A DNA stretch of 64,000 nt from Xanthomonas sp. SI (GTDB lineage: Bacteria; Pseudomonadota; Gammaproteobacteria; Xanthomonadales; Xanthomonadaceae), in contig NZ_CP051261.1 in assembly GCF_014236855.1 (NCBI RefSeq), forward strand, positions 2,480,001-2,544,000, in the 5' to 3' direction. Below are positions 20,611 through 35,803 of this stretch, piece by piece. Below the pieces are notes generated by a model, which was given only the letters and a program-made list of their open reading frames with translations, had not been told where the DNA came from and searched no databases. Made by a program: the position numbers and the translations under genes. Each line of letters begins with the position of its first letter. Within the stretch, counting starts at the first letter, position 1.

Positions 20611-21303
20611 TTGCGCGCCCAGTGGAAAATTCTTTGCGATTTCGACGGTACCGTGTCGCTGCAGGACGTGACCGATACCTTGCTCGAGCGTCTCGGCCAG
20701 CCGGGCTGGCGCGCGCTGGAAGAGGATTGGGTGGCCGGGCGCATCGGCGCGCGCGAGTGCATGAGCGGCCAGGTGGCGCTGCTCGACGGCGACGTGGACG
20801 CGCTGCACCGGGTGCTCGATGAGGTCCGCATCGATCCGGCGTTCGTGCGCTTCGTCGATCTGGCGCGCGACCTGGGCATGCCGCTGAGCATCGTCAGCGA
20901 CGGCCTGGACTACCCGATCGCGCGGATCCTGGCGCGGCACGGCCTGCATCAGCTGCCGATCATCGCCAACCGCCTGCTGCGCACCGACGCCGGGCAATGG
21001 CGCATGGCCTCGCCGCACGCGCAGCCTGGCTGCGCCAGCGGAACCTGCAAATGCGCGGTCATGGCCCAGCAGGAACCGGCGCGTTCCACCTTGCTGATCG
21101 GCGACGGCCGCTCCGATTTCTGCGTGGCCGGCAAGGCCGACCTCGTCTTCGCCAAGGACGGCCTTTTACGCCATTGCCGCGCCAGCGGCATCGCCCACCG
21201 CGCGATCGACGGTTTCGACGACGCCATCGCGCTGCTGCACGAACTCGCCGCGCCTGCCGTCGCCAGCGCGCGCCTCCCACTCCCCGTTCCCCAACGAGCC
21301 TGA
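20611..21303 (+). CDS. HAD-IB family phosphatase (MtnX/SerB-like)
   Basis: A 230-residue cytoplasmic HAD-superfamily phosphohydrolase. Motif I is CDFDGTVS (Asp10, Asp12), motif II is LSIVSDGLD, and motifs III/IV include LLIGDGRSDF. The small cap follows motif I, as in MtnX and phosphoserine phosphatase. A Cys-rich insertion GCASGTCKC near residue 145 is notable. The TTG at 20611 is chosen because a GGAGAG ribosome-binding site lies five bases upstream and homologous HAD chains begin just before motif I. Five bases separate it from the class III aminotransferase, suggesting an operon. The substrate is unknown. Confidence 0.8.
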   Translation: MRAQWKILCDFDGTVSLQDVTDTLLERLGQPGWRALEEDWVAGRIGARECMSGQVALLDGDVDALHRVLDEVRIDPAFVRFVDLARDLGMPLSIVSDGLDYPIARILARHGLHQLPIIANRLLRTDAGQWRMASPHAQPGCASGTCKCAVMAQQEPARSTLLIGDGRSDFCVAGKADLVFAKDGLLRHCRASGIAHRAIDGFDDAIALLHELAAPAVASARLPLPVPQRA

Positions 21304-21308
21304 TCCCC

Positions 21309-22826
21309 ATGAATCGGAATGTTCCGCTCCCCACCGCGCTTGCGCCGCTCCACGGCGATCTCGACACGCTCGATCTGGCCGCGCACGACGACCTGCAGCC
21401 GGCCTCGCCCGATCCGGACGCGCTGCTGCGCACCGGCCCCGCCTACCACGCCGCGCTCGGCGATGCGCAGATGCTGGCCGACGAGGCCCAGTACTGCTCG
21501 TTCGGCGACACCGTGCACTACAGCGAGCCGCCGCGGATCTTCGCGCACTGCGATGGCAGCTATCTGTACGACACCGAAGACGTGCCGTACTTGGACCTGC
21601 AGATGTGGTATTCGGCGGTCAACTTCGGCTACGCCAATCCGCGCCTGAACGGTGCCTTGAAGCGGCAGATCGACAGCCTGCCGCAGGTGGCCAGCCAGTA
21701 CCTGCACCCGACCAAGATCGAACTGGCCAAGACCATCGCCCAGGACGCCGAACGCAAGTGGGGCCGCAAGGGCCGCGTGCACTTCAACGTAGGTGGCGCG
21801 CAGTCGGTGGAGGATTCGCTGAAGCTGGTGCGCAACGCCACGGGCGGCAAGAGCCTGATGTTCGCCTTCGAGGGCGGCTATCACGGCCGCACCCTGGGTG
21901 CCTCGGCGATCACCTCCTCGTACCGCTACCGGCGCCGCTTCGGCCATTTCGACCGCGCCCAGTTCATCGAATTCCCGTACCACTTCCGCGGGCCCAAGGG
22001 CATTTCCAAGGAAGAGTACGGCGAGCAGTGCGTGGCCAAGTTCGAGCGCCTGTTCGAGACCGAGTACAACGGCGTGTGGGATCCCAAGGCCGGGCAGTGC
22101 GAGTACGCCGCGTTCTACGTCGAGCCGATCCAGGGCACCGGCGGCTACGTGATCCCGCCGCCGAACTTCTTCACCGGCCTGAAGCGGGTGCTGGACAAGT
22201 ACGGCATCCTGCTGGTGGTGGACGAGATCCAGATGGGCTTCTTCCGCACCGGCAAGCTGTGGGCGATCGAGCATTTCGGGGTGACCCCGGACGTGCTGGT
22301 GTTCGGCAAGGCGCTGACCAACGGCCTCAATCCGCTGGCCGGGGTCTGGGCGCGCGAGGAATTGATCAACCCGACCGTGTTCCCGCCGGGTTCGACCCAT
22401 TCCACCTTCGCCTCCAATCCGCTCGGCACCGCGGTGGGCCTGGAGACGATGCGGATGCTGGCCGAGACCGACTACGAGTCGATGGTCATGGCCAAGGGCG
22501 CGCACTTCCTCGACGGCCTGCGCGACCTGCAGAAGCGCCATCCGGAAATCGGCGACGTCGACGGCCTGGGCCTGGCGCTGCGCGCGGAGATCTGCCAGGC
22601 GGACGGCTTCACCCCGAACCGCAAGCTGCTCGACACGATGGTGGACATGGGCCTGGAAGGCGAGCTGCGCCACAACGGCAAGCGCATCGGCCTGGTGCTG
22701 GACGTGGGCGGCTACTACAAGAACGTGATCACCCTGGCGCCGTCGCTGCACATCAGCCACGACGAGATCGATCTGGGCCTGTCGCTGCTGGACCAGTTGC
22801 TGACCCGCGCCAAGCGGGTGGCATGA
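21309..22826 (+). CDS. class III PLP-dependent aminotransferase (diaminobutyrate/acetylornithine type)
   Basis: A 505-residue cytoplasmic fold-type I aminotransferase. It has the class III hallmarks VGGAQSVEDSLKLVR (cofactor phosphate site), FEGGYHGRTLGA, VDEIQMGFFRTG (cofactor Asp) and FGKALTNGLNPLAG with the Schiff-base Lys near 334. The family moves amino groups onto aldehydes or keto acids at the terminal carbon (diaminobutyrate, acetylornithine, 4-aminobutyrate types); the substrate cannot be fixed from sequence. An unusual N-terminal extension of about 60 residues precedes the catalytic fold. It follows the HAD gene and converges with the ketosynthase gene, whose stop is 58 bases away. 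Confidence 0.85.
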   Translation: MNRNVPLPTALAPLHGDLDTLDLAAHDDLQPASPDPDALLRTGPAYHAALGDAQMLADEAQYCSFGDTVHYSEPPRIFAHCDGSYLYDTEDVPYLDLQMWYSAVNFGYANPRLNGALKRQIDSLPQVASQYLHPTKIELAKTIAQDAERKWGRKGRVHFNVGGAQSVEDSLKLVRNATGGKSLMFAFEGGYHGRTLGASAITSSYRYRRRFGHFDRAQFIEFPYHFRGPKGISKEEYGEQCVAKFERLFETEYNGVWDPKAGQCEYAAFYVEPIQGTGGYVIPPPNFFTGLKRVLDKYGILLVVDEIQMGFFRTGKLWAIEHFGVTPDVLVFGKALTNGLNPLAGVWAREELINPTVFPPGSTHSTFASNPLGTAVGLETMRMLAETDYESMVMAKGAHFLDGLRDLQKRHPEIGDVDGLGLALRAEICQADGFTPNRKLLDTMVDMGLEGELRHNGKRIGLVLDVGGYYKNVITLAPSLHISHDEIDLGLSLLDQLLTRAKRVA

Positions 22827-22884
22827 GATGGCGGGAGACAGCGCGTTGGCGCCGCGTTGCCTCCCGTCCGCCGCGGCCTGCGCC

Positions 22885-24120
22885 TCAGCGCGCCTCGCGC
22901 ACTGCGAGCACCGCGTTGAGGCCGCCGAAGGCGAAGGAATTGCTGAGCACCGCGCGCACCCGTTGCGCGCGGGATTGGTTCGGGACGTAGTCCAGGTCGC
23001 AATCCTGATCCGCATCGAGGAAGTTCGCGGTCGGCGGCACCCGCTGCTCGCGCAGCGCGCCGATCGCCGCAACCAGTTCCAGCGCGCCGGCGGCGCCGAG
23101 CGCGTGGCCGTGCACCGCCTTGGTCGAACTCACCGCCAGCGCATCGGCGTGACTGCCGAACACCTCACGGATCGCCTGCGTCTCGCAGCGATCGTTGGCC
23201 AGGGTGCCGGTGCCGTGGGCATTGATGTAGTCGATCTGCTGCGGCTGCAGTTCTGCGTCCTGCAGCGCCAGGCGCATCGCCGCGGCGGCGCCGTCGGTGC
23301 TGGGCGCGACGATGTCGTGCGCATCGGCACTCATGCCGAAGCCGGCCAGTTCGGCCAGTGGGACCGCGCCACGCGCGGCCGCATGCGCGGCGCTTTCCAG
23401 CACGAAGACGCCGGCGCCTTCGCCCAGCACCAGGCCGCTGCGCTGAGCGCAGAACGGCCGGCAGGTGTCATCGCTGACCACGCGCATCGCTTCCCAGGCG
23501 CGGATCAGCGGCAGGCTCAGGCAGGCTTCGCCGCCGCCGGCGATGGCCACATCGGCCAGGCCGTGGCGGATCAGCAACGCCGCCTGCGCCAGCGCGTGGT
23601 TGGCCGAGGCGCAGGCGCTGGACACGGCGAAGGCCGGGCCGCGCAGGCCGAAGGCGATGCTGATCTGGCTGACCGGGGCGTTGTTCATGCTGCGCACGAT
23701 GGTCAGCGGATGCAGGCGCTCGGCCTGCTCGCGGTACAGCCGCCGCGATTGTTCGTCGCGGCTGAGTTCGGCGCCGACGCCGGTGCCGATCACCACCGCG
23801 CCGCGTGCCGCGCCGGCGCCGTCCAATACCAGGCCGGACTGCGCCACGGCCTCGCAGGCCGCGACCAGCGCCATCTGCGTCATGCGATCCAGCTGGCCCG
23901 GCGCGATGCCGCCCAACTGCGCCGCCTGCGGCGCGAACCCGGGCACGCTGGCGGCCAGGCGCATCTTCAGCGTGGCCTGCGGATCGGGCGAGGCCAGTGC
24001 GGCGATGCCGCTGCGGCCCTCGCACATGCCGCGCCACAGGGCATCGGCACCCAGGCCGAGCGCGCTGACCGCGCCCATCCCGGTGACGACGACGCGGTGT
24101 CCCTGCGCCGAGCGGTGCAT
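22885..24120 (-). CDS. beta-ketoacyl-[ACP] synthase (FabF/FabB-like)
   Basis: A 411-residue condensing enzyme with the elongating ketosynthase catalytic triad: Cys in SSACASANHA (about 168), His in NAHGTGT (about 301) and His in AVHGHALGAAG (about 336). It would extend an acyl chain on a carrier protein with malonyl-ACP. It lies six bases downstream of an acyl carrier protein gene on the same strand, so it probably works with that dedicated carrier rather than in bulk fatty acid synthesis. No ketoreductase, dehydratase or malonyl transferase is in the window. Confidence 0.9.
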   Translation of the reverse strand: MHRSAQGHRVVVTGMGAVSALGLGADALWRGMCEGRSGIAALASPDPQATLKMRLAASVPGFAPQAAQLGGIAPGQLDRMTQMALVAACEAVAQSGLVLDGAGAARGAVVIGTGVGAELSRDEQSRRLYREQAERLHPLTIVRSMNNAPVSQISIAFGLRGPAFAVSSACASANHALAQAALLIRHGLADVAIAGGGEACLSLPLIRAWEAMRVVSDDTCRPFCAQRSGLVLGEGAGVFVLESAAHAAARGAVPLAELAGFGMSADAHDIVAPSTDGAAAAMRLALQDAELQPQQIDYINAHGTGTLANDRCETQAIREVFGSHADALAVSSTKAVHGHALGAAGALELVAAIGALREQRVPPTANFLDADQDCDLDYVPNQSRAQRVRAVLSNSFAFGGLNAVLAVREAR

Positions 24121-24126
24121 GCCGGC

Positions 24127-24402
24127 TCAGTGCGCCGGTGCCAGCGCCGCGGCCGCGGCCTTGGCGACCAGCGCCTGATGCACCGCTTCGGCCAGCTTGC
24201 CCAGGGAGCCGTCGTCCAGGTTCGGATCGCGCTGCGGGAAGGTGATGTCGAAGTGCTCCTCGATGTCGAACAGGATTTCGATCGCCTCGAGCGAATCCAC
24301 GCCCAGGTCCTGCAGTTTGGTGTCGGCGGTCAGGCCGGCGGGATCGATCTCGCCATGCTTGGCGACGATGCTGTGGATCTGTGTCTCGATAGACGGGGTC
24401 AT
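24127..24402 (-). CDS. acyl carrier protein
   Basis: A 91-residue acidic protein with the phosphopantetheine attachment motif LGVDSLEAIE (Ser37) and the four-helix ACP pattern. A C-terminal Ala-rich tail (LVAKAAAAALAPAH) is longer than in housekeeping AcpP. A strong ribosome-binding site (GGAGGA) precedes the ATG. It is co-directional with the ketosynthase and divergent from the FemAB-type gene, with 113 bases between that must hold both promoters. Confidence 0.92.
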   Translation of the reverse strand: MTPSIETQIHSIVAKHGEIDPAGLTADTKLQDLGVDSLEAIEILFDIEEHFDITFPQRDPNLDDGSLGKLAEAVHQALVAKAAAAALAPAH

Positions 24403-24515
24403 GGCAGTCCTCCGCGAAATGAATGGCCACCGCGCGGCGGGTGCCGCCGGTGGAAGGCATGCCGCGGCCCACGGCTGCGGCGTCCATCCTCCACGCTAGC
24501 CGGTCAATCTTGCAG

Positions 24516-25586
24516 ATGCCTTTCGTAAGCCAACTCGAACCGCAGGCGCTGCAGCGGCAGTTCCTCGCGCATCCTCCGCAGGATTTCCAGGCGCGGACGC
24601 TGGAACACGGCGTGCCTGCGTTCGACGCCGTGTTCGACCTGCTCACCACCGCCGACCCGGCACTGCGCGCGCGCGTGGCCGGCTGGCCGCTGCAGCGGCT
24701 GTGGCGGCGCTGGCTGCGCCCGCGCACCAGCTTCGTCGGCAGCACCGTCAGCGAGTACGCCTGGCTGCCGCGCGCGGCCGACCCGGCGCAGTTGCCCGGC
24801 CAGTGGCGGGCGCAACTGGGGCGCGAGCGCCCGCTGCTGATCGTCAAGGACATTCCGCAGCACTCGCCGCTGCTCGATGCCACCGACAACGCCTGGGCGC
24901 ACGTGTTCCTGGAGGCCTGCGCGCGCAGCGGCTACGTGCTGCTGCGCGGGCAGGCGCTGGCCTGGGTGCCGATCGATTTCGCCTCCATCGACGAGTACCT
25001 AGCGCGGCTGTCGCGCGGCCGCCGCCGCAACATCCGCCGCAAGCTGCGCTCACGCGCCGATCTGCAGATCGAGGAACTGCCGACCGGCGCCGCCTTCGCC
25101 GACCCGGCGCTGCGCGCGCAGTGTTATGCGCTGTACCTGCAGGTCTACGCGCAGAGCGAGGTGCATTTCGACCTGCTGACTGAAGCGTTCTTCGACGCGC
25201 TGTTGACCGATGCGGACTCCGGCGGCCTGGTGTTCGCCTATCGTCACCAGGGCCGACTGATCGGCTGGAACCTGTGCTACGTGCACCAGGGACGTTTGGT
25301 CGACAAGTACATCGGCCTGCACTATCCGCAGGCGCGCGAGCACAACCTGTACGCGCTGAGCTGGATGCACAACCTGGACTACGCCTGCCGCCATGGCCTG
25401 CGCGCCTATGTCGCCGGCTGGACCGATCCGCAAGTGAAGGCGCAACTCGGCGCCAGCTTCACCTACACCTGGCATGCGGTGTACCTGCGCAACCCGCTGC
25501 TGCGCATCGCGCTGCGGCGGCTGCGGCCGCTGTTCGAAGCCGACGATGTCGGCACTCCAGACCCAGACGCCGACGCGGCGGAATGA
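24516..25586 (+). CDS. FemAB/GNAT-type acyltransferase
   Basis: A 356-residue protein with a tandem GNAT-like organisation as in FemAB and 'peptidogalycan' acyltransferases. Recognisable parts are the RGRRRNIRRKLRSR basic segment followed by the C-terminal acyltransferase half (GGLVFAYRHQGRLIGWNLCYV, DKYIGLHYPQAREHNLYAL). Such enzymes transfer aminoacyl or acyl groups to an amine. No signal peptide or membrane helix is seen. There is no clear ribosome-binding site at the chosen ATG; an in-frame start at 24423 is possible. Its stop lies one base before the UPF0489 start. Confidence 0.7.
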   Translation: MPFVSQLEPQALQRQFLAHPPQDFQARTLEHGVPAFDAVFDLLTTADPALRARVAGWPLQRLWRRWLRPRTSFVGSTVSEYAWLPRAADPAQLPGQWRAQLGRERPLLIVKDIPQHSPLLDATDNAWAHVFLEACARSGYVLLRGQALAWVPIDFASIDEYLARLSRGRRRNIRRKLRSRADLQIEELPTGAAFADPALRAQCYALYLQVYAQSEVHFDLLTEAFFDALLTDADSGGLVFAYRHQGRLIGWNLCYVHQGRLVDKYIGLHYPQAREHNLYALSWMHNLDYACRHGLRAYVAGWTDPQVKAQLGASFTYTWHAVYLRNPLLRIALRRLRPLFEADDVGTPDPDADAAE

Positions 25587-25587
25587 C

Positions 25588-26469
25588 ATGAGCGCACCGG
25601 TACTGCTGGACCTGGACGACTCGCTCGGCACGGTGCCGGGCGCGTTGCGCCTGCCACTGCACGAGTGGTGCGACGGGCTGCGCTTCGCCTGTTCGCTGCG
25701 CAGGCTGCGACGCTTCGGCGCCGCGCTCGACGGCGTGCTGCCGGCACGGCACGGCACCGTGCTGCTCGGCAGCGGCGATTTCCATCACCTGAGCCTGCCG
25801 CTGATCGTGCGCCAGGCGCAGCGCGCACAGGTGCCGCTGCGGGTGGTGGTGTTCGACAACCATCCGGACAACATGCGCTTCCCGTTCGCGGTGCATTGCG
25901 GCTCGTGGGTGTGGCGGGTGGCGGCGCTGCCGCAGGTGGCGCGGGTGGAAGTGGTCGGCATCACCTCGGGCGATGTCGGTGCCCCGCATGCCTGGGAAAA
26001 CCATCTGCGGCCGCTGTACCGCGGCAAGCTGCGCTACTGGTGCAGCGGCGTGGACGTCGGCTGGGCGCGGCGCCTGGGACTGGGGCGGGCGGTGCGCGGC
26101 TTCGGCTCGAGCATGGAGATGATCGACGCCTTCCTGCAGCACCTGCGCAGCACGCCGATGCCGACCTATCTGTCGCTGGACAAGGACGTGCTGGATCCGC
26201 AGGACGCGCGCACCAACTGGGACCAGGGCGAACTGCGGGTGCCGCACCTGCTCACCGCCATCGCCTACCTGCACGGGCAACTGCTCGGCAGCGACATCAC
26301 CGGCGAAGTGTCGGAAGCGCGCTATCCGCAGTGGTGGAAGCGGCGCCTGGCGGCGCTGGATGCGCAGCCGGTGCCGTCGCCGCAATCGCTATCGGCGTGG
26401 CAGGCGCAGCAGCATGAGGTGAACCTGCGGTTGTTGCAGGCGTTGGCCGAGGCCGGGTTGCCGCGGTAG
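25588..26469 (+). CDS. arginase-fold UPF0489-like protein
   Basis: A 293-residue protein with the metal-binding motifs of the arginase/agmatinase fold in order: GSGDFHH (about 51-57), VFDNHPDNM (about 88-96), YLSLDKDVLDP (about 192-202) and DITGEVSEARY. These correspond to the GGDHS, DAHxD and SxDxDxxDP metal ligands of ureohydrolases, so hydrolysis of a guanidino or amidino group is a reasonable guess. The family itself is uncharacterised. It is coupled to the FemAB-type gene and converges with the DegT aminotransferase across a REP pair. Confidence 0.7.
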   Translation: MSAPVLLDLDDSLGTVPGALRLPLHEWCDGLRFACSLRRLRRFGAALDGVLPARHGTVLLGSGDFHHLSLPLIVRQAQRAQVPLRVVVFDNHPDNMRFPFAVHCGSWVWRVAALPQVARVEVVGITSGDVGAPHAWENHLRPLYRGKLRYWCSGVDVGWARRLGLGRAVRGFGSSMEMIDAFLQHLRSTPMPTYLSLDKDVLDPQDARTNWDQGELRVPHLLTAIAYLHGQLLGSDITGEVSEARYPQWWKRRLAALDAQPVPSPQSLSAWQAQQHEVNLRLLQALAEAGLPR

Positions 26470-26490
26470 CGCATGCTCGACGCTGGTCCG

Positions 26491-26558
26491 TGTAGGAGCG
26501 GCTTCAGCCGCGACGGGCGTTACCGATGGATCCTGTCGCGGCTGAAGCCGCTCCTACA
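26491..26558. repeat. paired GTAG-type REP (24-bp perfect inverted repeat)
   Basis: Arms at 26491-26514 and 26535-26558 are perfect inverted copies (TGTAGGAGCGGCTTCAGCCG... and its complement) separated by 20 bases. The pair sits between two convergent genes and can form a long hairpin that may stop transcription from both sides. Confidence 0.9.
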
Positions 26559-26589
26559 GGATTGTGCAGGGTGCGACAGTGTTGTGGGA

Positions 26590-27795
26590 TCAGACCATTC
26601 GCTCCGCACACACCTGCCGCAGCACCGTAACGATCGCCTCGAATCCATCCTCGTCCAGCCACGGGCTGTTGCTGATGCTGAGGCAGCGCGCGGCGAAGTC
26701 GCGCGCGTGCGGCATCGGTGCGGGATCGACGATGCCGTGCAGGTAGGCGTAGTCGGGCAGGGCGTGCACGAACAGCAGGCCGACGCCGAGCCCGCGCGGC
26801 CACAGCTGCGCCAGTGCGCGTTCGCGTGCGGCCGCGTCCGGCAGCAGCACCAGCAGGGCCGGCCAGCTGCCCTGCGCGCCGGCGCTGTCGGCGACGACCC
26901 GCAGCCCGGCGATCGCGGCCAGGCGTTCGGTGCGGCGCAGACCTTGTACACGCGCCTGCGCCAGGAACGCCGGCCAGCGCGCGCTGGCGCGCACGCCGAC
27001 CGCTTCGCGCCAGGCGCCGACCGCGTGTTGCGGGATCGCCGCATCGAATTGATCGCCGGCCGCGGCCACGCGGTCGCCGCGGCGCAAGGCGCGGCGCAAC
27101 GGCGCGCCGTAGGCCCAGCGCAAGGCGAGTGGTCGGTACAGCGCGGCGTAGCCGAGCAACTGCAGGCTGCGCTGCAGTTCCCGGCGCCAGTCGGGCTGGC
27201 CCAGGCGCGCCGCCATCGCCGCCAGGCTGCGCCGCAACGGCGCGTGCGGCGACATCAGCAGGCCGCCTTCGTACAGGGTTGGGCCCTTGCCCACCGCCAG
27301 GCTGCAGAAGCCGATGTCGCCGCCCAGGCCGGCCGGCCGGCCGTCGGCATGCACGCCGCCCAGCGCCTGCGCGGCGTCTTCGATCAGCATGGCGCCGCAG
27401 GCCGCGGCGGCATGGCGCAGCGGCTCCAGGTCGGTCAGGCGTCCGCCCAGATGGGTGGCGACGATCGCCAGGGTGTCGCTGCCGCAGCGCTGCGCCAGCT
27501 GCGCAGGGTCGGGTTCGATCGAGTCGGGCAGCAGATCGCACAGCACCAGTTGCAGGCCGCAATGGGCCACCGCCAGCGCGACCAGCGGGCAGGTGTAGGC
27601 GGCCACCAGCACCTGCCGGCGGCGGCTGCCGGCGGCCAGGGTGCGCAGCGCGATGACCAGCGCGGCGGTGCCCGAGCAGGTCAGCAGCGCATCGGGAAAG
27701 CCGAGTTGCGCGGCCAGCCGCTGCGGCGTGCGCGCCGGCCACAGGTCGCGCCAGCGCAGCGGCAACCCGGCGGTGGGCGGAACCTCAGTGCGCAT
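26590..27795 (-). CDS. DegT/DnrJ/EryC1/StrS-family aminotransferase
   Basis: A 401-residue fold-type I PLP enzyme of the family that aminates keto-sugars and related ketones. Motifs are TCSGTAALVIALRTL (cofactor binding), IEDAAQALGG (cofactor Asp) and FCSLAVGKGPTLYEGGLL with the expected Schiff-base Lys near 169. The second half is more divergent than in sugar aminotransferases, so the substrate is uncertain. It is the last gene of a minus-strand group (hydrolase, two EamA-like proteins, this gene) and its start overlaps the preceding gene by 11 bases. Confidence 0.82.
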   Translation of the reverse strand: MRTEVPPTAGLPLRWRDLWPARTPQRLAAQLGFPDALLTCSGTAALVIALRTLAAGSRRRQVLVAAYTCPLVALAVAHCGLQLVLCDLLPDSIEPDPAQLAQRCGSDTLAIVATHLGGRLTDLEPLRHAAAACGAMLIEDAAQALGGVHADGRPAGLGGDIGFCSLAVGKGPTLYEGGLLMSPHAPLRRSLAAMAARLGQPDWRRELQRSLQLLGYAALYRPLALRWAYGAPLRRALRRGDRVAAAGDQFDAAIPQHAVGAWREAVGVRASARWPAFLAQARVQGLRRTERLAAIAGLRVVADSAGAQGSWPALLVLLPDAAARERALAQLWPRGLGVGLLFVHALPDYAYLHGIVDPAPMPHARDFAARCLSISNSPWLDEDGFEAIVTVLRQVCAERMV

Positions 27796-28183
27796 CGGCC
27801 GGCGCGGCGCGCTCGCCGAGCGCGAGGCAGACGATGCCGGCCACGATCAGCGCCGCACCGAGCGCCTGCAGCATGCCGATCGGCTCGCCGAACCACCACG
27901 CCGACAGCAGCAGCACGCTGACGATCTCCAGGTGCGAGGCGGCGAAGGCAGGGCCGATCGGCGCGTGCTCGAGCAGTTTCATCCAGGTGAAGAACGCGCC
28001 GACATAGCCCAGCAGCGCGGCGTACAGCCAGGGACTGGCGAGCAGGCGCAGCACCCAGGTCCACTCGGCCTGCGGCGGGAACGCGTGCGCGCCGCCGAGC
28101 TTGAAGCCGAACTGGGCCAGGGTGTCGAAGCCCAGCAGCAGGGCGAAGCCCACGGCGTAGCGTTGCAGCGGCGGGCGGCTCAT
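27785..28183 (-). CDS. EamA/SMR-like four-helix membrane protein, subunit B
   Basis: A 132-residue protein with four hydrophobic helices (for example LYAALLGYVGAFFTWMKLLE and ALIVAGIVCLALG), about half the length of a full EamA transporter. It overlaps its partner by four bases (ATGA). Adjacent half-size pairs of this kind occur as heterodimers, for example the ArnE/ArnF flippase of undecaprenyl-linked aminoarabinose. The role in exporting or flipping a product of this locus is inferred from context. Confidence 0.72.
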   Translation of the reverse strand: MSRPPLQRYAVGFALLLGFDTLAQFGFKLGGAHAFPPQAEWTWVLRLLASPWLYAALLGYVGAFFTWMKLLEHAPIGPAFAASHLEIVSVLLLSAWWFGEPIGMLQALGAALIVAGIVCLALGERAAPADAH

Positions 28184-28542
28184 GTGCCGAGTCCGACCAC
28201 GGCCACGCCGGCGCTGACCAGGCAGATCCCGGCCACCTGCATGCGTCCCAGCCGCTCGCCGAACAGCCAGCGCCCGGCGAGCATGATCGCCACGATGTTG
28301 ATCGAGCCGAGCAGCACGCCGCGGCCCAGCGGCACCAGCGACAGGAACGCGGTCCAGGCCAGGAATTCGAATGCGTAGCAGGCGATGCCCAGCCACAGCC
28401 ACGGCTGCCGCGCCATGCGCCGCCAGCGCGCCGCGCCGCTCGCCAGCGGGTCGCTGGCGACGTGCTTGAAGGCCAGCTGGCCGACCGTGTCCAGCGCCAC
28501 CGTCGCCAGCCACACGCCGACCACGGGCGCCTGCAGCGCCAT
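28180..28542 (-). CDS. EamA/SMR-like four-helix membrane protein, subunit A
   Basis: A 120-residue protein with four hydrophobic helices (VVGVWLATVALDTVGQLAF, LWLGIACYAFEFLAWTAFL, GVLLGSINIVAIMLAG and MQVAGICLVSAGVAVVGL). The helix pattern and the LPLGR-like loop resemble SMR/EamA half-transporters. It is translationally coupled to its partner downstream and overlaps the hydrolase upstream by one base (TGATG). Polar substrate identity is unknown. Confidence 0.72.
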   Translation of the reverse strand: MALQAPVVGVWLATVALDTVGQLAFKHVASDPLASGAARWRRMARQPWLWLGIACYAFEFLAWTAFLSLVPLGRGVLLGSINIVAIMLAGRWLFGERLGRMQVAGICLVSAGVAVVGLGT

Positions 28543-29366
28543 CAGGCGGCCTGGCGCGGCGCGGCCTGCGCGGCGAAGAACTGCGCCAGGCGCGCGCCGA
28601 GCACGCGGCGTTCGCGATCCAGGGTGATCATGTGATAGCTGTCGTGCAGCAGCAGCAATTCCACCGGTCCGGACACGCCGGCCACCACCAACTGCGCGTT
28701 GCGCAGATGCGCGATGTCGTCCTCGGCCGCATGCGCGACCAGGCACGGCGCGGTCACCTTGGCCAGGTTGCGGCGCACCCGTCGCGACAGCAGGTGCATC
28801 TCGGCCAGCGCGTGCCACGGATTGCCGGGCAGGCCGGCGGCGCTGCTGTCGCCGCCGAGCATCGCGCCGCTGATCTGCGCGCGGATGCGCTCGTCGCGCA
28901 GGCCGTACGGCGGTTCTTCCAGGAACATGCGGCGGCGGCCGATGCCCAGCCGCTTGAACCACGGCAGCAGGAACGCCAGCCGCGCACGGCGCGGGATGTT
29001 CCAGCCGTCATAGCGGAAGGTGGCGCCGAGCACGCCGACGCCATCGATCCACTCCGGCCGCTCTTCGGCCAGTTGCAGCGCCAGCAGCGCGCCCATCGAC
29101 AGCCCGGCCACGAACAGTTTGTCCACCTGCGGGCGCATCTGCGCCGCGGCCTGTTCGACGCTGGCGGTCCAGTCGCGCCAGCCGGTGGCGAGCAGGTCGT
29201 CCTCATTGCCGCAATGCCCGGCCAGCTGCACGCCGTGCACGCTGAAGCCCTCCCGGTTCAGCGATTTGCCGAGCAGGCGCATCTCGCTCGGCGTGCCGGT
29301 CAGGCCGTGGATCAGCAGCACGCCGTGGCGGCCGCCCTGGAAGTGGAATTCGGCGGATTGGATCAT
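28542..29366 (-). CDS. alpha/beta hydrolase (carboxylesterase/thioesterase-like)
   Basis: A 274-residue serine hydrolase similar to Est30-type carboxylesterases. The oxyanion segment is GVLLIHGLTGTPSEM, the nucleophile elbow is GLSMGA (near residue 90), and the C terminus contains HAAEDDIAH (acid) and HDSYHMITLD (His). There is no signal peptide, so it is likely cytoplasmic. It is the first gene of the minus-strand group with the two EamA-like proteins and DegT. Hydrolysis or release of an acyl group is plausible given the nearby ACP and ketosynthase. Confidence 0.82.
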   Translation of the reverse strand: MIQSAEFHFQGGRHGVLLIHGLTGTPSEMRLLGKSLNREGFSVHGVQLAGHCGNEDDLLATGWRDWTASVEQAAAQMRPQVDKLFVAGLSMGALLALQLAEERPEWIDGVGVLGATFRYDGWNIPRRARLAFLLPWFKRLGIGRRRMFLEEPPYGLRDERIRAQISGAMLGGDSSAAGLPGNPWHALAEMHLLSRRVRRNLAKVTAPCLVAHAAEDDIAHLRNAQLVVAGVSGPVELLLLHDSYHMITLDRERRVLGARLAQFFAAQAAPRQAA

Positions 29367-29433
29367 GGCGGCACGGCGTCGGCAGCGGAAGCACGCGCGC
29401 AGCGTGGCGGACAGGCGTTTCAGCAGCCTTTCG

Positions 29434-30339
29434 TCAGCGTTGCGGTGCGGAAGGGTTGCGGAAGCGCACCAGCACGCGCTGGCCCAGGCGCAGCGCCGAC
29501 GGTTGCCGGAACGCCAGCACGCAGGCCACGCTGCGGTCGTTGCCGGCGCTGGCGCCATCGGCGTCGTCGTGCAGTTGCGCCGGGCCGAACGCCGGCGCCA
29601 GCCAGCGCACCTCCGCGCTGCCCAGCGCGGTCTGGCGGCCGTCGTCGCTGATCACCTCGGCCTGCATGCCGGGGCGCACCGCAGTGGCGTAGCTTTCGTT
29701 CAATTCGGCGCGCACCAGGCGCGGCGCGTCCGGCAGCAGGGTCAGCAGCGGCGTGGCGCCGCCGTCGCTGCGCGCGCCGACCGCGGCGGCCAGCTGCAGC
29801 ACGCGGCCGTCGGCGGGCGCGTACAGGCGGTACTGGTCGCGCTGCAGTTGCGCCTGATGTACCTGCTCGGTGGCCAGCGTGGCGTCGCTGCGCGCGGCCT
29901 GCAGCGCGTCGGCCAGGGTCTGGCTGGCGTCGCCGGCATCGTCGGCGCTCTGGCCGTCGCCGGCGCCGATCCGCGCCGCCTCGGCCAGCCGTTGCTGGCG
30001 CTGCTGCGCGTGCGCCAGTCGCTGCTGCAACTGGTGAACGTGCGCGTTCGCGGCCTGCGCGCGGGTCTGCGCGATGTCCAGGTCCAGCGCCGCGGCGCGG
30101 TCGTCGGCTGCGATCAGCAGCGCGCCGCGGCGCACCGCATCGCCTTCGTGCACCGCCACCCGCTGCAACGTCGCGGCGACCGGCAGGCTCAGCCGCAGCA
30201 GCCCGCCTTCCACGTCGATGCGCCCGCGCGCCACCGCCAGGTAGGCCGGCGCCGCGTTGGGCGCGGGCGCGGCCTGCGGCGGTCGCGCGCAGGCGGCCAG
30301 CAGCAGGCCCAGCAGGGGAGCGGCGAGGAGCGCTTTCAT
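29434..30339 (-). CDS. HlyD-like membrane-fusion lipoprotein of an ABC exporter
   Basis: A 301-residue periplasmic adaptor with a lipoprotein signal peptide (LLGLLLAAC; the Cys would be lipidated). A barrel-sandwich part (LPVAATLQRVAVHEGDAVRRGALL) precedes a long Gln/Ala-rich alpha-hairpin (about 90-160), then YRLYAPADGRVLQL and a beta-barrel region (VRAELNESYATAVRPGMQAEV). It would link the permease/ATPase below to the outer-membrane factor. It is the last gene of the operon, overlapping the ATPase gene by four bases. Confidence 0.87.
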   Translation of the reverse strand: MKALLAAPLLGLLLAACARPPQAAPAPNAAPAYLAVARGRIDVEGGLLRLSLPVAATLQRVAVHEGDAVRRGALLIAADDRAAALDLDIAQTRAQAANAHVHQLQQRLAHAQQRQQRLAEAARIGAGDGQSADDAGDASQTLADALQAARSDATLATEQVHQAQLQRDQYRLYAPADGRVLQLAAAVGARSDGGATPLLTLLPDAPRLVRAELNESYATAVRPGMQAEVISDDGRQTALGSAEVRWLAPAFGPAQLHDDADGASAGNDRSVACVLAFRQPSALRLGQRVLVRFRNPSAPQR

Positions 30340-31103
30340 GGTGCGGACATCCGGGGCGAAGAAGAAGGCGAGGGCGGCGGCGCCAGGCGGCGGTCGTCGA
30401 GGATGCGGCCGTCCTCCATCGACAGCACGCGGTCGGCGTGGCGGATCAGCCGCGGATCGTGGCTGACGCACAGCACCATGGTGTTGTGGCTGCGGGCGAT
30501 GCGGTGCAGCAGGTCGATCACGATCTGGCCGTTGCCGGCGTCCAGCGCGCTGGTCGGCTCGTCGGCGAACAGCAGCGCCGGGTGCTTGGCCAGCGCGCGC
30601 GCGATCGCCACGCGTTGTTTCTCGCCGCCGGACAGCTCGGCCGGGCGCAGCTGCTGGCGGTGGGCGATGCCGACCTCGGCCAGCGCCGCTTCGGCGCGCG
30701 CGCGCACCTCGGCCGCGGCCAGGCCCATGTACTGCAGCGGCAGCCGCACCTGGTCCAGCGCGCTCAGCGCCGGGAACAGGTTGAAGCCCTGGAAGATGAA
30801 GCCGGTATGGCGCAGGCGGAAGCGTTCCAGCGCGCTCGCGTCGAGCGCGCCCAGGTCTTCGCCCAAGGCCTGCACGCGGCCGCGGTCGGCGCGCTGCAGG
30901 CCGCTGAGGATCGACAGCAGGGTGCTCTTGCCGCAGCCCGAGGGTCCGGAGATCAGGGTCAGTTCGCCGGGCCACACCTGCAGCGTCACCTCGCGCAGCA
31001 CGTCGGTGCGCAGCTTGCCGGAGACGAAGCTCTTGCACAGGCCGCTGCCGTGCAGCGTGGCGGCATCGGGCAACAGCGCGGCGGGAACGGCGGCACGGTT
31101 CAT
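30336..31103 (-). CDS. MacB/LolD-type ABC transporter ATPase
   Basis: A 255-residue cytoplasmic ATPase. Walker A is GPSGCGKSTLL, the Q-loop is FIFQGFNLFPALSA, the signature is ELSGGEKQRVAIARALA, Walker B is ALLFADEP and the switch His is in CVSHDP. It belongs to the LolD/MacB export group. It overlaps both neighbouring genes by four bases and would drive the permease encoded just upstream. Confidence 0.93.
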   Translation of the reverse strand: MNRAAVPAALLPDAATLHGSGLCKSFVSGKLRTDVLREVTLQVWPGELTLISGPSGCGKSTLLSILSGLQRADRGRVQALGEDLGALDASALERFRLRHTGFIFQGFNLFPALSALDQVRLPLQYMGLAAAEVRARAEAALAEVGIAHRQQLRPAELSGGEKQRVAIARALAKHPALLFADEPTSALDAGNGQIVIDLLHRIARSHNTMVLCVSHDPRLIRHADRVLSMEDGRILDDRRLAPPPSPSSSPRMSAP

Positions 31104-32233
31104 CGCAGCAACAGCGCCGGATCGGCGCGGCGCAAGCCGCGCAGCGCGGCCAGCGCCGAGAGCAGGGTCAGCAGCATCACCGCGACCACGCACGCGGCCC
31201 AGCCGTTGCCGTCGAAGGCTACCGGCACGTCGTGCGCACGCGCCAGCGCCACCAGCGCGGCGCCGAGCGCGCTGGCGCCGAGCAGGCCCAGCGCGCCGAC
31301 CCAGGCCGCCTGCTCAAGCACCACCCAGCGCAGCGCGCGCATGCTCACGCCCAATGCGTTGAGCGTGGCGTACTCGCGTGCGGCGCCGAGCACCGTGGCC
31401 AGCAGGGTCTGGCTGGTGATCGCCACGCCGACCAGCAGCACGATGCCGCCGAGGAACAGCACGCCGGAGCCGGCGCCGGTGTCGAACATCCAGAACAGGA
31501 TGCTGCGCCGGGCGAACTCCGCTGCACTCCAGGCCTCGATGCGTGCCGGCGCGGCGCTGCCGACCAGGCCGCGCGCCACCGCCGCGGCGTCGGTGCCGGG
31601 CCGCAGCCGCGCGACCACGTAGGTCGGCCAGTCCGGGTGCGCGGCATCGGTGTTCAAGGCGCGCGCGGTTTCCAGCGAGGCCAGCACGTTGACCCCGCCC
31701 AGCGCACGCAGGCCGCGGCCGACCCCGATCACCCGCACCCGGTGGCCGTTGATGCGCGCGCTGCGGCCGATGCCGACGCCGAGCTTGTCCAGTTCGGCGC
31801 GGTCCACCACCACCGTGTCCGGTTCGCGCAGCGCCGCGCGCAGGGCGGGGCTCAACAGCCGCGCGAACATCAGCCCGTCGCTGCGGGTGTCGATGCCGGA
31901 GACGTAGATCGACACCGCGCCGGTGTCGTCGGGGCCGCGCCAGTCGCCGTCGAACCACACGAACGGTTCGACCTGCAGCACCCGCGGGTCCAGGTACAGC
32001 GCGGTGGCGGCATCGGGATCGATCGGACGCCCCTGATCCACGCTCTGCGTGCCCGGATAGCCCAGCCACAGATCGGCGTCGGAGCCGGATACGTAGACGC
32101 TGGCGCTGCCGAAGATGCCCAGCACCAGCGCGGTCTGCAGCAGCAGCAACAGGCTGGCGAAGCCGACCGAGACCACCACCGGCAGGAAGCGGCGCCATTC
32201 GTGGCGCAGGGTCTGGCGGGCCAGCGCGACCAT
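31100..32233 (-). CDS. MacB/DevC-type ABC transporter permease
   Basis: A 377-residue inner-membrane permease with an N-terminal helix (VVVSVGFASLLLLLQTALVLG), a periplasmic domain of about 210 residues, and three C-terminal helices with the FtsX-like region (LGGIVLLVGVAITSQTLLATVLGAAREYATLNALG). This four-helix topology is that of MacB/DevC mechanotransmission exporters. It is coupled to the ATPase by a four-base overlap and overlaps the outer-membrane-factor gene by one base. Confidence 0.88.
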   Translation of the reverse strand: MVALARQTLRHEWRRFLPVVVSVGFASLLLLLQTALVLGIFGSASVYVSGSDADLWLGYPGTQSVDQGRPIDPDAATALYLDPRVLQVEPFVWFDGDWRGPDDTGAVSIYVSGIDTRSDGLMFARLLSPALRAALREPDTVVVDRAELDKLGVGIGRSARINGHRVRVIGVGRGLRALGGVNVLASLETARALNTDAAHPDWPTYVVARLRPGTDAAAVARGLVGSAAPARIEAWSAAEFARRSILFWMFDTGAGSGVLFLGGIVLLVGVAITSQTLLATVLGAAREYATLNALGVSMRALRWVVLEQAAWVGALGLLGASALGAALVALARAHDVPVAFDGNGWAACVVAVMLLTLLSALAALRGLRRADPALLLR

Positions 32234-33666
32234 CAGGGCGCCGCGCCTGTCGCGCCGGCTTCGGTGGCGGCCTGCGTGTCCGCGCTGCCCAGCGCGGTCT
32301 GCAGCGCGATGTAGTCGAGATCGCGCTGGCGCTGCGCGTCGAGCAGTTCCAGCGCGGCCTGGTCGCGTGCGGCCTGTTGCGTGGCGATGTCCAGATCGCT
32401 GCCCAGGCCCAGTTTGCGCCGCGCCTGCGCCGCGTCGGCGGCCTGCTGCAACGCCTGCAGTGCCTGCTGCTGCGCCAGCGCGCGCTGGCGCTGCTGTTCC
32501 AGCGCGGTCAGCGCGTTCTGCACTTCGGCCACCGCCTCCAGCACGCATTGGCGGTAGGCCAGCGCAGCGGCCTGCAGCAGGTCGCCGCGCGCCTGTGCCT
32601 GGGCCTGGCGCAGGCCCCAGTCGAACAGCGGGATATCGATCAGCGGCCCCAGCGAGGCGATTTCGTGCGGGGTGGCGGTGCGGCGGTGCGAGAGCAGGTT
32701 GGTGGACCAGTGGATGGCGCCGCCCAGGCCGATGCTCGGGTAGCGGTCGGCGCGGGCGATGCCCAGTTCGCCGGCCGCGCTGAGCACCTCGGCTTCGCGT
32801 GCAGCGATGTCCGGGCGCCGCCGCAGCAGATCGGCGGGCACTGCGTCTAGCGCGCCGATCTGCAGGCTCGGTGGCGCTGTCTCCGCCGCGGCCGGTGATG
32901 CAACGGCGGCGCTCCACGCCGGGTCCGGTTCACTGCGCGCCAGCAGCACCGCCAGCCGTTGCGCGGCGGCGGCGCTGGCGGTGCGCGGTTCGCCCAGCGC
33001 GGCTTGCGCCTGCAACTGCGCGGCCTGCGCCTGCGCGGCGGTGGCCGGCGGCGCCAGGCGCAGCTCGACCAGGGCGGCGCTTAGCGTCGCCTGCCGCTGG
33101 CGGGCGTCGGCGATGCGCTGCAGCACCTGTTCGGCCTGTTGCGCGTGGCGCAGTTCGATCCAGTTGCGCGCCACGTCGGCGACGGTGGCGGTGCGAACCT
33201 GTTCCAGGCTGGCCTGTGCGGCCTGCAGGTCGCCGCGGCTCATGCGGCGGGCGGCTTCGCCGCGCCCGAACAGCGGCAGCTCCCATTCCGCGTCGAAGCC
33301 GGCGACCAGGAACGAGGCGCTGGCGTCGGGGTCGATCGGTTCTTCGGTGCGCGCGTGCAACTGCGGCTTCAAATCGGCGGTGGCGACGCCGTCCATGCGC
33401 CGCGCCGCGCGCAGCCTGGCCAGCGCCTGGGCCACGTCGAGATCGTCGCGCAGCGCCTGTGCGACCAGCGCGTCGAGCTGCGGATCGTGGAAGTCCTGCC
33501 ACCAGGCGCTGCCTGCCGGCCGTGGCGCGGCCGCAGCCGGCAGCGCGCTCCATTGCGGCGGCAGCGGTTGCGCCAGGTCCGGCAGCGGGGTGCTGACGCA
33601 GCCGGCCAGCGCCGCGGCGCCCAGCACGGCAAGCCCGGCCAGCCGGGATGCGTGGCGCCGGCTCAT
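32233..33666 (-). CDS. NodT/TolC-family outer-membrane factor lipoprotein
   Basis: A 477-residue outer-membrane channel protein of the NodT family. Its signal peptide ends in a lipobox (ALAGC, Cys near residue 23), and the chain has the duplicated long-helix pattern with WWQDFHDPQLDALVAQAL in the first half and LDAVPADLLRRRPDIAAREAEV in the second, a standard OMF motif. It supplies the outer-membrane exit for the exporter. Its start overlaps the kinase stop by four bases (ATGA). Confidence 0.92.
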   Translation of the reverse strand: MSRRHASRLAGLAVLGAAALAGCVSTPLPDLAQPLPPQWSALPAAAAPRPAGSAWWQDFHDPQLDALVAQALRDDLDVAQALARLRAARRMDGVATADLKPQLHARTEEPIDPDASASFLVAGFDAEWELPLFGRGEAARRMSRGDLQAAQASLEQVRTATVADVARNWIELRHAQQAEQVLQRIADARQRQATLSAALVELRLAPPATAAQAQAAQLQAQAALGEPRTASAAAAQRLAVLLARSEPDPAWSAAVASPAAAETAPPSLQIGALDAVPADLLRRRPDIAAREAEVLSAAGELGIARADRYPSIGLGGAIHWSTNLLSHRRTATPHEIASLGPLIDIPLFDWGLRQAQAQARGDLLQAAALAYRQCVLEAVAEVQNALTALEQQRQRALAQQQALQALQQAADAAQARRKLGLGSDLDIATQQAARDQAALELLDAQRQRDLDYIALQTALGSADTQAATEAGATGAAP

Positions 33667-35093: not shown

Positions 35094-35803
35094 GACGCCT
35101 GCGGGTCGTGGGCGGCGTCGGCGTCGGCTTCTGCGGTGCGGGATTCTTCCAGCAGGTAGCCCAGGCCGCGGATGGTGCGGATGCCGACGCCGGAACCGTG
35201 CAGCTTGCGACGCAGGCGGTGCATGGAGATGTCCAGGCCGTTGTCGGTGATCTCGTGCTGCCAGTCGCACAGCGCGTCGGTGAGCTGGCCGCGGCTGACC
35301 ACGCGCCCGCTGCGCATCAGCAGCGTTTCCAGCAGCGCGAACTCGCGCGCGGTCAGTTCCAGCGGTTCGTCCTGCAGCCACACCCGGCGCCCGGCCAGGT
35401 TGATCCGCAACTGGCCCAGGGCAAGCTCGGGGATGCCGCCGCTGCTGCGCCGGCGCAGCAGGGCGCGGGTACGGGCCAGGAACTCGGACAGTTCGAACGG
35501 CTTGATCAGGTAGTCGTCGGCGCCCTGGTCGAGGGCGCGGATACGGTCTTCCACGCTGTCGCGCGCGGTCACCACCAGCACCGCCACCTCGTCGCGGCGC
35601 TCGCGCACGCGCTGCAGCACCTGCAGGCCGTCGCGCCGCGGCAGGCCCAGGTCCAGTACCAGCAGGTGGTAGGACTCGGCGCTGAGCGCGCGCTCGGCGG
35701 CGGCGCCGTCGTTGACGTGGTCCACCACGTGCCCGCACTCGGCGAGCGAGTCGCGCAACGCAACGGCAATGGACGTATCGTCTTCGGCAACCAGGATGCG
35801 CAT
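35090..35803 (-). CDS. OmpR-family response regulator
   Basis: A 237-residue regulator with a receiver domain (acid pair Asp8/Asp9, phospho-acceptor Asp51 in LVLDLGLP, Lys in YLIKPF near 101) and a C-terminal winged helix (ELTAREFALLETLLM and HRLRRKLHGSGVGIRTIRGLGYLL). The gene is first in a six-gene minus-strand operon with the kinase, outer-membrane factor, permease, ATPase and adaptor, so it probably regulates its own exporter. It is preceded by a 725-bp gene-free region. Confidence 0.93.
   Translation of the reverse strand: MRILVAEDDTSIAVALRDSLAECGHVVDHVNDGAAAERALSAESYHLLVLDLGLPRRDGLQVLQRVRERRDEVAVLVVTARDSVEDRIRALDQGADDYLIKPFELSEFLARTRALLRRRSSGGIPELALGQLRINLAGRRVWLQDEPLELTAREFALLETLLMRSGRVVSRGQLTDALCDWQHEITDNGLDISMHRLRRKLHGSGVGIRTIRGLGYLLEESRTAEADADAAHDPQAS

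Follow-up and report, generated by a model that had tools for sequence, protein, structure and literature searches.

Two questions are raised by a run of biosynthetic genes in Xanthomonas sp. SI: do these genes form one functional unit or only a neighborhood, and what would such a unit make? The genes lie in a window of 64,000 nucleotides (positions 2480001-2544000 of the 5.25 Mb genome), in which positions 20611-29366 had previously been singled out, from the sequence alone, as a putative locus for an amino-acyl or aminolipid-like product. The answer to the first question is that the locus is almost certainly one unit, a set of sixteen genes that encode enzymes, proteins resembling lipid flippases, a pump and a sensor pair, which moves as swappable modules in many Proteobacteria. 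The second question has a less secure answer: on balance, the product is probably an N-acylated, amine-bearing acyl lipid of the envelope, made and moved by a single co-inherited modular system under two-component control. Coordinates refer to the window, and G, L and g with numerals are the genome, locus and genus labels of the present analysis. The genes are as follows.

20611-21303, plus strand: HAD-IB phosphatase, MtnX-like (TTG start; PF12710; TIGR01489 above cut-off; nearest solved structure MtnX, 2fea)
21309-22826, plus strand: class III aminotransferase, AT3 (PF00202, E 1.7e-75; alignment to 7vno)
22885-24120, minus strand: FabF-like ketosynthase, KS (PF00109/PF02801; PRK07314 above cut-off, TIGR03150 below)
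24127-24402, minus strand: dedicated acyl carrier protein, ACP (PF00550)
24519-25586, plus strand: FemAB_like/GNAT acyltransferase, FemAB (PF04339, PF13480; start set by relatives, a longer open reading frame (ORF) being open from 24423)
25588-26469, plus strand: arginase-fold hydrolase (PF00491, E 1.1e-7)
26590-27795, minus strand: DegT/DnrJ/EryC1/StrS aminotransferase with a diverged C-terminal half, DegT (PF01041 over residues 26-192)
27785-28183, minus strand: half-size EamA transporter 1, weakly ArnF-like (PF00892)
28180-28542, minus strand: half-size EamA transporter 2, weakly ArnE-like (PF00892)
28542-29366, minus strand: alpha/beta hydrolase, monoacylglycerol-lipase-like (PF12146; nearest solved structures are bacterial monoacylglycerol lipases)
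29434-30339, minus strand: HlyD-type periplasmic adaptor (PF13437; conserved with the unit; beyond the span originally predicted)
30336-31103, minus strand: ABC ATPase (PF00005; conserved with the unit)
31100-32233, minus strand: FtsX/MacB-type permease (PF02687, PF12704; conserved with the unit)
32233-33666, minus strand: TolC-type outer-membrane efflux protein (PF02321; 38 of 77 loci from named genomes)
33663-35093, minus strand: sensor histidine kinase (GTG start chosen; PF08521, PF00512, PF02518; present in 20 of the 23 genomes over the stretches covered)
35090-35803, minus strand: OmpR-type response regulator (PF00072, PF00486; present in 20 of the 23 genomes over the stretches covered)

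The proteins listed in the original prediction are all encoded by adjacent genes, have the folds that were assigned to them and retain their catalytic residues; the prediction counted nine genes, but its own list holds ten, and its label for the arginase-fold protein, UPF0489, was not returned by Pfam, which gives PF00491 instead. All ten genes between 20611 and 29366 have a coding-type codon composition, with high GC at third and low GC at second positions. The start adopted for FemAB, 24519, is the same as in the X. sacchari annotation, and the start codon of the arginase-fold gene follows the FemAB stop codon by 1 bp. On the minus strand, the genes form a chain that runs from the response regulator through the histidine kinase, the TolC-type, FtsX, ABC ATPase and HlyD genes, the hydrolase, EamA 2 and EamA 1 to DegT, with overlaps of 1 to 11 bp (given the chosen start codons) and a lone gap of 67 bp, between the HlyD and hydrolase genes. 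Because this overlapping chain runs on to the response regulator, the unit is taken to span 20611-35803; the end formerly placed at 29366 falls short of the exporter and the two-component system. By domain matches, the tripartite exporter set is complete at the locus (adaptor, ATPase, FtsX/MacB permease and TolC-like protein). The nearest named relatives of the arginase-fold protein are those of Xanthomonas bonasiae FX4 (96%) and X. translucens (95%, a partial protein).

The case for unity rests on co-occurrence. In a sample of 121 genomes drawn from the order Xanthomonadales, the arginase fold is present in 22, and FemAB (E<=1.3e-113) and DegT (E<=3.5e-104) occur in exactly the same 22; further matches to FemAB (24 genomes, E>=9e-11) and to DegT (8 genomes, 3.9e-18 to 3.0e-16) are distant family members. 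The HAD gene is found in these 22 genomes and in G060 (23 of 121), AT3 (E<=1e-120) in 21 of the 22 and in G060 (22 of 121), and KS (E<=1e-100) in 15 of the 22 and in G060. The exception for AT3 is G053, where HAD is adjoined by a different class III aminotransferase (26% identical to AT3; PF00202, E 3e-65). Naive Fisher p values, which ignore shared ancestry, range from 4.7e-13 for KS to about 1e-24 for DegT and FemAB, those of the core genes lying between 2.8e-21 and about 1e-24. Shared ancestry is not the whole explanation because the genus g3, with eight genomes listed, splits into four with the arginase fold, AT3, FemAB, DegT and HAD (G023, G040, G047 and G086) and four without any of the five at the same thresholds (G013, G068, G081 and G096). 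Within the window's own genus, the arginase fold is present in 19 of 20 genomes and DegT in the same 19; the remaining genome, G522, lacks both, together with an AT3 orthologue (best AT3 match, 28%).

Co-retention extends to genes that are not neighbors. DegT and the arginase-fold gene are ~42 kb apart in G074 and G100 and ~55 kb apart in G095, and in G120 they lie on different contigs; AT3 is ~152 kb from the arginase-fold gene in G039; and the set is scattered over three contigs in G053. Proximity alone cannot explain the co-retention because genes that are far apart or on different contigs still occur in the same genomes. The original prediction had named free separation in related genomes, with a known unrelated role for each gene, as evidence against a unit, and one half of this is seen: the genes are physically apart in some genomes, yet the same genomes keep them. 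Two or more unrelated units that adjoin each other by chance would agree with the presence of genes on both strands and with the separation of modules in several g46 genomes, g33 and G053; this explanation is nevertheless highly improbable, given that genomes retain the genes when these are apart, that they can be lost jointly (G522), and that the genes recur together in other orders and classes and their outside neighbors do not.

When the 22 arginase-fold genomes and G060 are tabulated together (genes not searched genome-wide being counted in the fetched stretches only), the modules become apparent. HAD, both EamA genes and the hydrolase are present in 23 of 23 genomes and AT3 in 22; FemAB, the arginase fold and DegT are present in 22 each, always the same genomes, as are the histidine kinase and response regulator in 20, KS and ACP in 16, and the HlyD, ABC, FtsX and TolC-type genes in 12.

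When named genomes were scanned with alignment A1, at least 554 relatives were confirmed. The best 80 were analysed within 10 kb of the arginase-fold gene in either direction, and presence counts are minima because contig ends truncate many of the loci. Within the order, these 80 come from Rhodanobacter, Dyella, Luteibacter, Frateuria, Dokdonella, Lysobacter and Xanthomonas, and outside it from Pigmentiphaga, Alcaligenaceae SAGV5, Xylophilus, Delftia, two other Burkholderiales or unplaced bins and a Salinisphaera bin. With adjacency defined as the same strand and a distance within 400 bp, FemAB adjoins the arginase fold in 80 of 80 loci, KS adjoins ACP in 66 of the 66 loci that have both, EamA adjoins EamA in 66 of 66, DegT adjoins EamA 1 in 63 of 63, EamA 2 adjoins the hydrolase in 58 of 62 and HAD adjoins AT3 in 49 of 51. 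KS, ACP and both EamA genes are present in 66 of the 80 loci, DegT in 65, the hydrolase in 64, AT3 in 59 (two of these only 24-26% identical) and HAD in 53; among the exporter genes, ABC is found in 50 (some unrelated), HlyD in 43, FtsX in 42 and the TolC-type gene in 41.

The borders of the unit were controlled in two sets of loci, 77 from named genomes and 34 from the genome samples, which overlap in species so that the counts are not additive; a locus was counted only if 3 kb or more of DNA lay beyond the end of the unit (HAD on the left, the response regulator on the right), those of the named set being non-Xanthomonas. On the left, hemN and three further ORFs (two of them mutually overlapping) recur in 0 of 37 named-genome loci and 0 of 18 loci of the second set. 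On the right, an OprB porin gene and three further ORFs recur in 0 of 3 and 0 of 10, respectively, so the right border rests on few loci. An outside ORF at 40692-43211 has one match among the 34 loci of the second set and none among the loci counted on the right. Within Xanthomonas, some outside neighbors are kept, namely hemN in L053 and hemN with a porin in X. sacchari. The border control and the joint absence of the arginase fold, DegT and AT3 in G522 led to the rejection of chance neighborhood, and the unity that the original prediction offered as an inference, with conserved co-occurrence as the check, is strongly supported.

The catalytic residues are conserved throughout the relatives: Asp/Ser/Asp of HAD in 51 of 51, Cys-His-His of KS in 66 of 66, the Ser of ACP in 63 of 63, the pyridoxal phosphate (PLP) Lys of DegT in 62 of 62 and the Ser/Asp/His triad of the hydrolase in 65 of 65. 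ACP matches fatty-acid ACP models below their cut-offs. FemAB scores 51.1 bits against PF04339 (cut-off 27) and 43.5 against PF13480 (cut-off 22), and a sequence search found no meaningful relative among solved structures. In the arginase-fold protein, the metal ligands His, Asp-x-His-x-Asp and Asp-x-Asp align with those of arginase and agmatinase and are present in 79 of 79; His103, presumably the second-shell His of ureohydrolases, is likewise present in 79 of 79, and position 240, which we take to be that of their guanidinium-binding Glu, holds Glu in 73 and Asp in 6 of 79 (both assigned by motif, not structure).

The most unusual active site is that of AT3. The PLP Lys is present in 46 of the 46 proteins with a residue at that position, but AT3 departs from its nearest solved relatives at two other positions: EPIQGTGG and VITLAPSL stand in the window where 7vno has EPIQGEGG and AIRLIPPL. 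Thr/Thr thus replaces the Glu/Arg carboxylate gate, again in 46 of the 46 with a residue there, and no glutamate-type switch was found in AT3. In gamma-aminobutyrate and ornithine aminotransferases, the two positions make up the Glu/Arg switch that handles the alpha-carboxylate of the donor. This replacement suggests that glutamate is not the donor or that the reaction is not an ordinary transamination. That AT3 and HAD make serinol phosphate from dihydroxyacetone phosphate is only an idea, which would suit a conserved Arg with the lost carboxylate gate, the small-molecule phosphatase and the monoacylglycerol-lipase-like hydrolase. In L040:5565-6914 (G053), L089 and L106, the slot beside HAD holds another class III aminotransferase, 24-26% identical to AT3; since a non-orthologous class III enzyme replaces AT3 there, HAD appears to need a class III partner.

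Beyond the order, the set persists in changed composition. Among 398 genomes sampled from the phylum, the arginase fold is present in 17 (one of them weak, E 1.9e-4) and AT3 (E<=1e-120) in 26, and all 16 genomes with a strong arginase-fold match also hold AT3. Loci L149-L152, from two groups, encode remote proteins of the same set (arginase fold, EamA-type, HAD, AT3, hydrolase and FemAB/GNAT) with MipA; L149 has a histidine kinase with a sigma-54-type regulator, and a similar pair in L152 was recognised by eye only. Reduced versions also occur: L176-L178 keep ACP-KS-HAD-AT3-hydrolase, L174 has HAD-AT3-hydrolase without other matches, and G150 (L179) has only AT3 (55%). HAD-AT3-hydrolase looks like the minimal set. 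In G352, one contig (L148) carries a Xanthomonas-type FemAB-arginase-EamA-EamA run and another (L181) a Pseudomonas-type FemAB-hydrolase-AT3-HAD-MipA run.

AT3 is also found in 34 of 72,556 plasmid records (Rhizobium 16, Agrobacterium 10, Bartonella 5, and Xanthomonas, Sinorhizobium and Phyllobacterium 1 each), of which 12 neighborhoods were read (nine rhizobial, two Bartonella and one Xanthomonas sacchari). The nine rhizobial loci, whose gene tables are incomplete, have the order HAD-AT3-arginase-EamA-[desaturase]-hydrolase-GNAT-EamA-[cyclopropane synthase]. A fatty-acid desaturase is present in six of the nine, and four of these six also have a cyclopropane-fatty-acid synthase, inside the operon or at its end; a TolC/ABC/adaptor exporter is found in two loci that have neither. 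Two-component genes lie upstream in 9 of 9 (divergent in two; one lists the regulator only). No KS or ACP is annotated in the remote Rhizobium, Agrobacterium and Bartonella plasmid versions, and none of the rhizobial, Bartonella or f17/f61 versions read shows DegT. In L120, a cyclopropane synthase gene comes after the arginase-fold gene. In L160 and L170, on Bartonella plasmids from bat faeces, a reduced AT3-GNAT-arginase fold set stands beside AlgX-like and MBOAT O-acyltransferase genes, with no HAD, EamA or hydrolase matches nearby.

It is mainly this variation that argues for a lipid: KS/ACP, the desaturase, the cyclopropane synthase and MBOAT, all of them enzymes of acyl chains or of acyl transfer, vary around a constant core. 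The same conclusion is suggested by the fatty-acid type of KS and ACP, by the hydrolase, which is nearest to monoacylglycerol lipases, and by the EamA pair, whose best matches, at scores far below cut-off, are ArnE and ArnF, as well as by an Agrobacterium locus with genes for a diacylglycerol kinase and for a transferase of phosphoethanolamine to lipid A next to it. The aminolipid-like product of the original prediction is thus favored by relatives that carry acyl-lipid enzymes.

A sequence of steps can be proposed, tentatively, and it is rather doubtful that their order is right even in outline. AT3 and the HAD phosphatase would make a small amine precursor, and KS and ACP, branched off fatty-acid synthesis, would supply a chosen acyl chain, which a desaturase or cyclopropane synthase may shape in other lineages. 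The FemAB/GNAT protein would couple the chain to the amine. On the same intermediate, the arginase-fold enzyme might then hydrolyse a guanidino or similar C-N group, unmasking an amine, and DegT might add or exchange a further amino group, before the monoacylglycerol-lipase-like hydrolase trims or transacylates the product. The paired half-size EamA proteins would act as an ArnE/ArnF-like flippase, and the HlyD-ABC-FtsX-TolC pump, where present, might carry the product or a by-product onward. The sensor and regulator, at the head of the minus-strand chain, would switch the set on, probably under envelope stress. A bolder version is conceivable but unlikely, namely a new class of amide lipid that arises without serine palmitoyltransferase or Ols enzymes, in which a masked guanidino-type amine would be freed on the lipid by the arginase fold, with KS/ACP, desaturase, cyclopropane synthase and MBOAT swapped between lineages.

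Several observations weigh against an N-acylated envelope lipid made by a single system. G060 keeps HAD, AT3, KS, ACP, both EamA genes, the hydrolase and the exporter without FemAB, the arginase fold or DegT; G123 has AT3, the EamA pair, the hydrolase, HAD and the exporter, but its whole genome has no arginase-fold match, and the contig that was read has no FemAB, DegT or KS. Because the core thus exists without FemAB in both genomes, the coupling step cannot be general. Spearman correlations of the protein distances are lower between FemAB and the other proteins (0.49-0.68) than among these others (0.71-0.94). KS and ACP are missing from 7 of the 23 genomes, neither desaturase nor cyclopropane synthase is present in three of the nine rhizobial plasmid loci, and MBOAT outside Bartonella is found in one further locus only, L061. 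Finally, HAD, AT3 and the arginase fold belong to families without lipid specificity.

Specialised-metabolite clusters commonly combine export genes, two aminotransferases and an amidohydrolase-type fold with a stand-alone KS that has its own ACP. The system could accordingly make a secreted compound (a fatty-acyl amine, a small polyketide-amine, a signal or an antibiotic), with KS and ACP building part of the molecule itself and the EamA pair and the pump exporting it, and the complete HlyD-ABC-FtsX-TolC pump in 12 of 23 genomes, the patchy distribution and the presence on plasmids all speak for such a product. If so, the loci would represent a mineable natural-product family. This alternative has a real but clearly minor share of the probability: the 16 products include no ketoreductase, dehydratase, adenylation or release domain, KS and ACP are dispensable, as their absence from those seven genomes indicates, and the lineage-specific additions are acyl-lipid enzymes.

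Modification of an existing envelope component with an amine offers another precedent. In the Arn system, which adds 4-amino-4-deoxy-L-arabinose (L-Ara4N) to lipid A under PmrAB, a DegT aminotransferase and paired half-size EamA proteins are found, and the present unit shares the DegT enzyme, the half-size EamA pair and two-component control. The unit might, therefore, modify lipid A or an undecaprenyl-linked sugar, while the acyl genes tune the surrounding membrane; the first half of DegT matches sugar aminotransferases, which are its nearest relatives mainly in that half. In the Agrobacterium locus mentioned above, on the A. fabrum 2788 plasmid pAt2788a (L169:18297-20332), the phosphoethanolamine-lipid A transferase and diacylglycerol kinase genes come immediately after the operon, which points to remodelling of the envelope. 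Such a role is improbable all the same, given that no glycosyltransferase, formyltransferase or ArnT-type transferase was found among the 16 products and that DegT was not seen in the remote versions read. There is no counterpart of ArnA, ArnC, ArnD or ArnT among these products, and the scores are far below the curated cut-offs for ArnB (DegT, 46.6 bits; cut-off 631), ArnF (27.5; cut-off 99) and ArnE (25.0; cut-off 92), the latter two being the best NCBIfam matches of the EamA pair.

An envelope lipid, the product preferred here, has further parallels among known systems, but membership in the Arn, sphingolipid or ornithine-lipid pathways was rejected on the domain content of the 16 products. 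MacB is a fusion of ATPase and permease; the exporter of the unit differs from MacAB-TolC in encoding the two as separate genes. In arginine-derived polyketides, an amidinohydrolase reportedly unmasks an amine from a guanidino group, as the arginase-fold enzyme may do here; the present unit differs in lacking a modular polyketide synthase and in pairing its arginase-fold enzyme, which is only remotely related to solved agmatinases and arginases, with FemAB/GNAT. The ornithine-lipid enzymes comprise an OlsB-type N-acyltransferase and a PlsC-type O-acyltransferase, and neither domain was matched among the 16 products. What the unit shares with the synthases OlsBA and OlsF is the idea of an N-acylated amino-acid lipid tied to stress (PMC12186959).

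According to two papers, the ceramide pathway of Proteobacteria (Rhodobacteria) consists of AasR, AcpR, Spt, CerR and CerS/bCerS, its genes affect the response to polymyxin B, and one region brings together lipid-transport genes with a specialised ACP, a PLP enzyme and a cytoplasmic N-acyltransferase, as is the case here (PMC11324152, PMC11087976). The specialised ACP of the unit is that at 24127-24402, present in 16 of 23 genomes. The 16 products, the only ones scanned, include no serine palmitoyltransferase-type alpha-oxoamine synthase, acyl-ACP synthetase or CerR-type reductase; in their place, the unit has an arginase-fold enzyme and two aminotransferases, of class III and DegT type. In Pseudomonas fluorescens MYb115, sphingolipids are derived from a monomodular polyketide synthase and an alpha-oxoamine-synthase aminotransferase, neither of which is present in the unit; the likeness lies in a non-canonical cluster that makes a membrane-type lipid, and this case shows that unusual sphingolipid routes exist (PMC12134224). 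No description of the present gene set was found in the open-licence literature, subscription papers being outside the scope, so that 'undescribed' is provisional.

This modular pathway, with its linked two-component genes, recurs among Proteobacteria associated with soil and plants, namely Xanthomonas, Lysobacter, Rhodanobacter, Dyella and Delftia, and on plasmids of Rhizobium and Agrobacterium. A membrane lipid made by it would be an unrecognised envelope component across at least three orders and would matter for plant contact and for the way cells respond to antimicrobial peptides. Whether the product is a lipid or a secreted compound, AT3, which has lost its gate pair, and the arginase-fold enzyme coupled to FemAB represent unexplored enzymology.

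Several other genes accompany the unit in particular lineages. A MipA/OmpV-type outer-membrane gene stands beside HAD in many loci (for example, L030:4056-4850); it is present in 12 of the 23 tabulated genomes, 46 of 149 loci scanned, 22 of the best 80 named-genome relatives and 7 of 9 rhizobial plasmid loci, with none in the window's own surroundings. In L097, L104 and L121, from three close Burkholderiales relatives only, the stretch between the arginase-fold gene and DegT (at about 10.8-18.8 kb) holds a pair of cyanophycin-synthetase-like genes together with ABC-transporter and DUF1854 genes; cyanophycin metabolism as a link to arginine was considered and dropped, the pair being present in only 3 of 149 loci scanned, which are 89-97% mutually identical. 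The plasmid record of Xanthomonas sacchari R1 (L159; NZ_CP010410.1) has the gene arrangement of the window, although the FtsX gene is not listed; the whole cluster and hemN lie on this 508 kb record, which is labelled a plasmid and could be a chromosomal segment assembled apart. In L041, L042 and L046-L048, the two-component pair also adjoins what look, by eye, like DUF4198, DUF2271, PepSY, ApbE-type and sulfite-reductase-flavoprotein genes (clusters c19 and c21-c24), and the regulator may serve a second system besides the unit.

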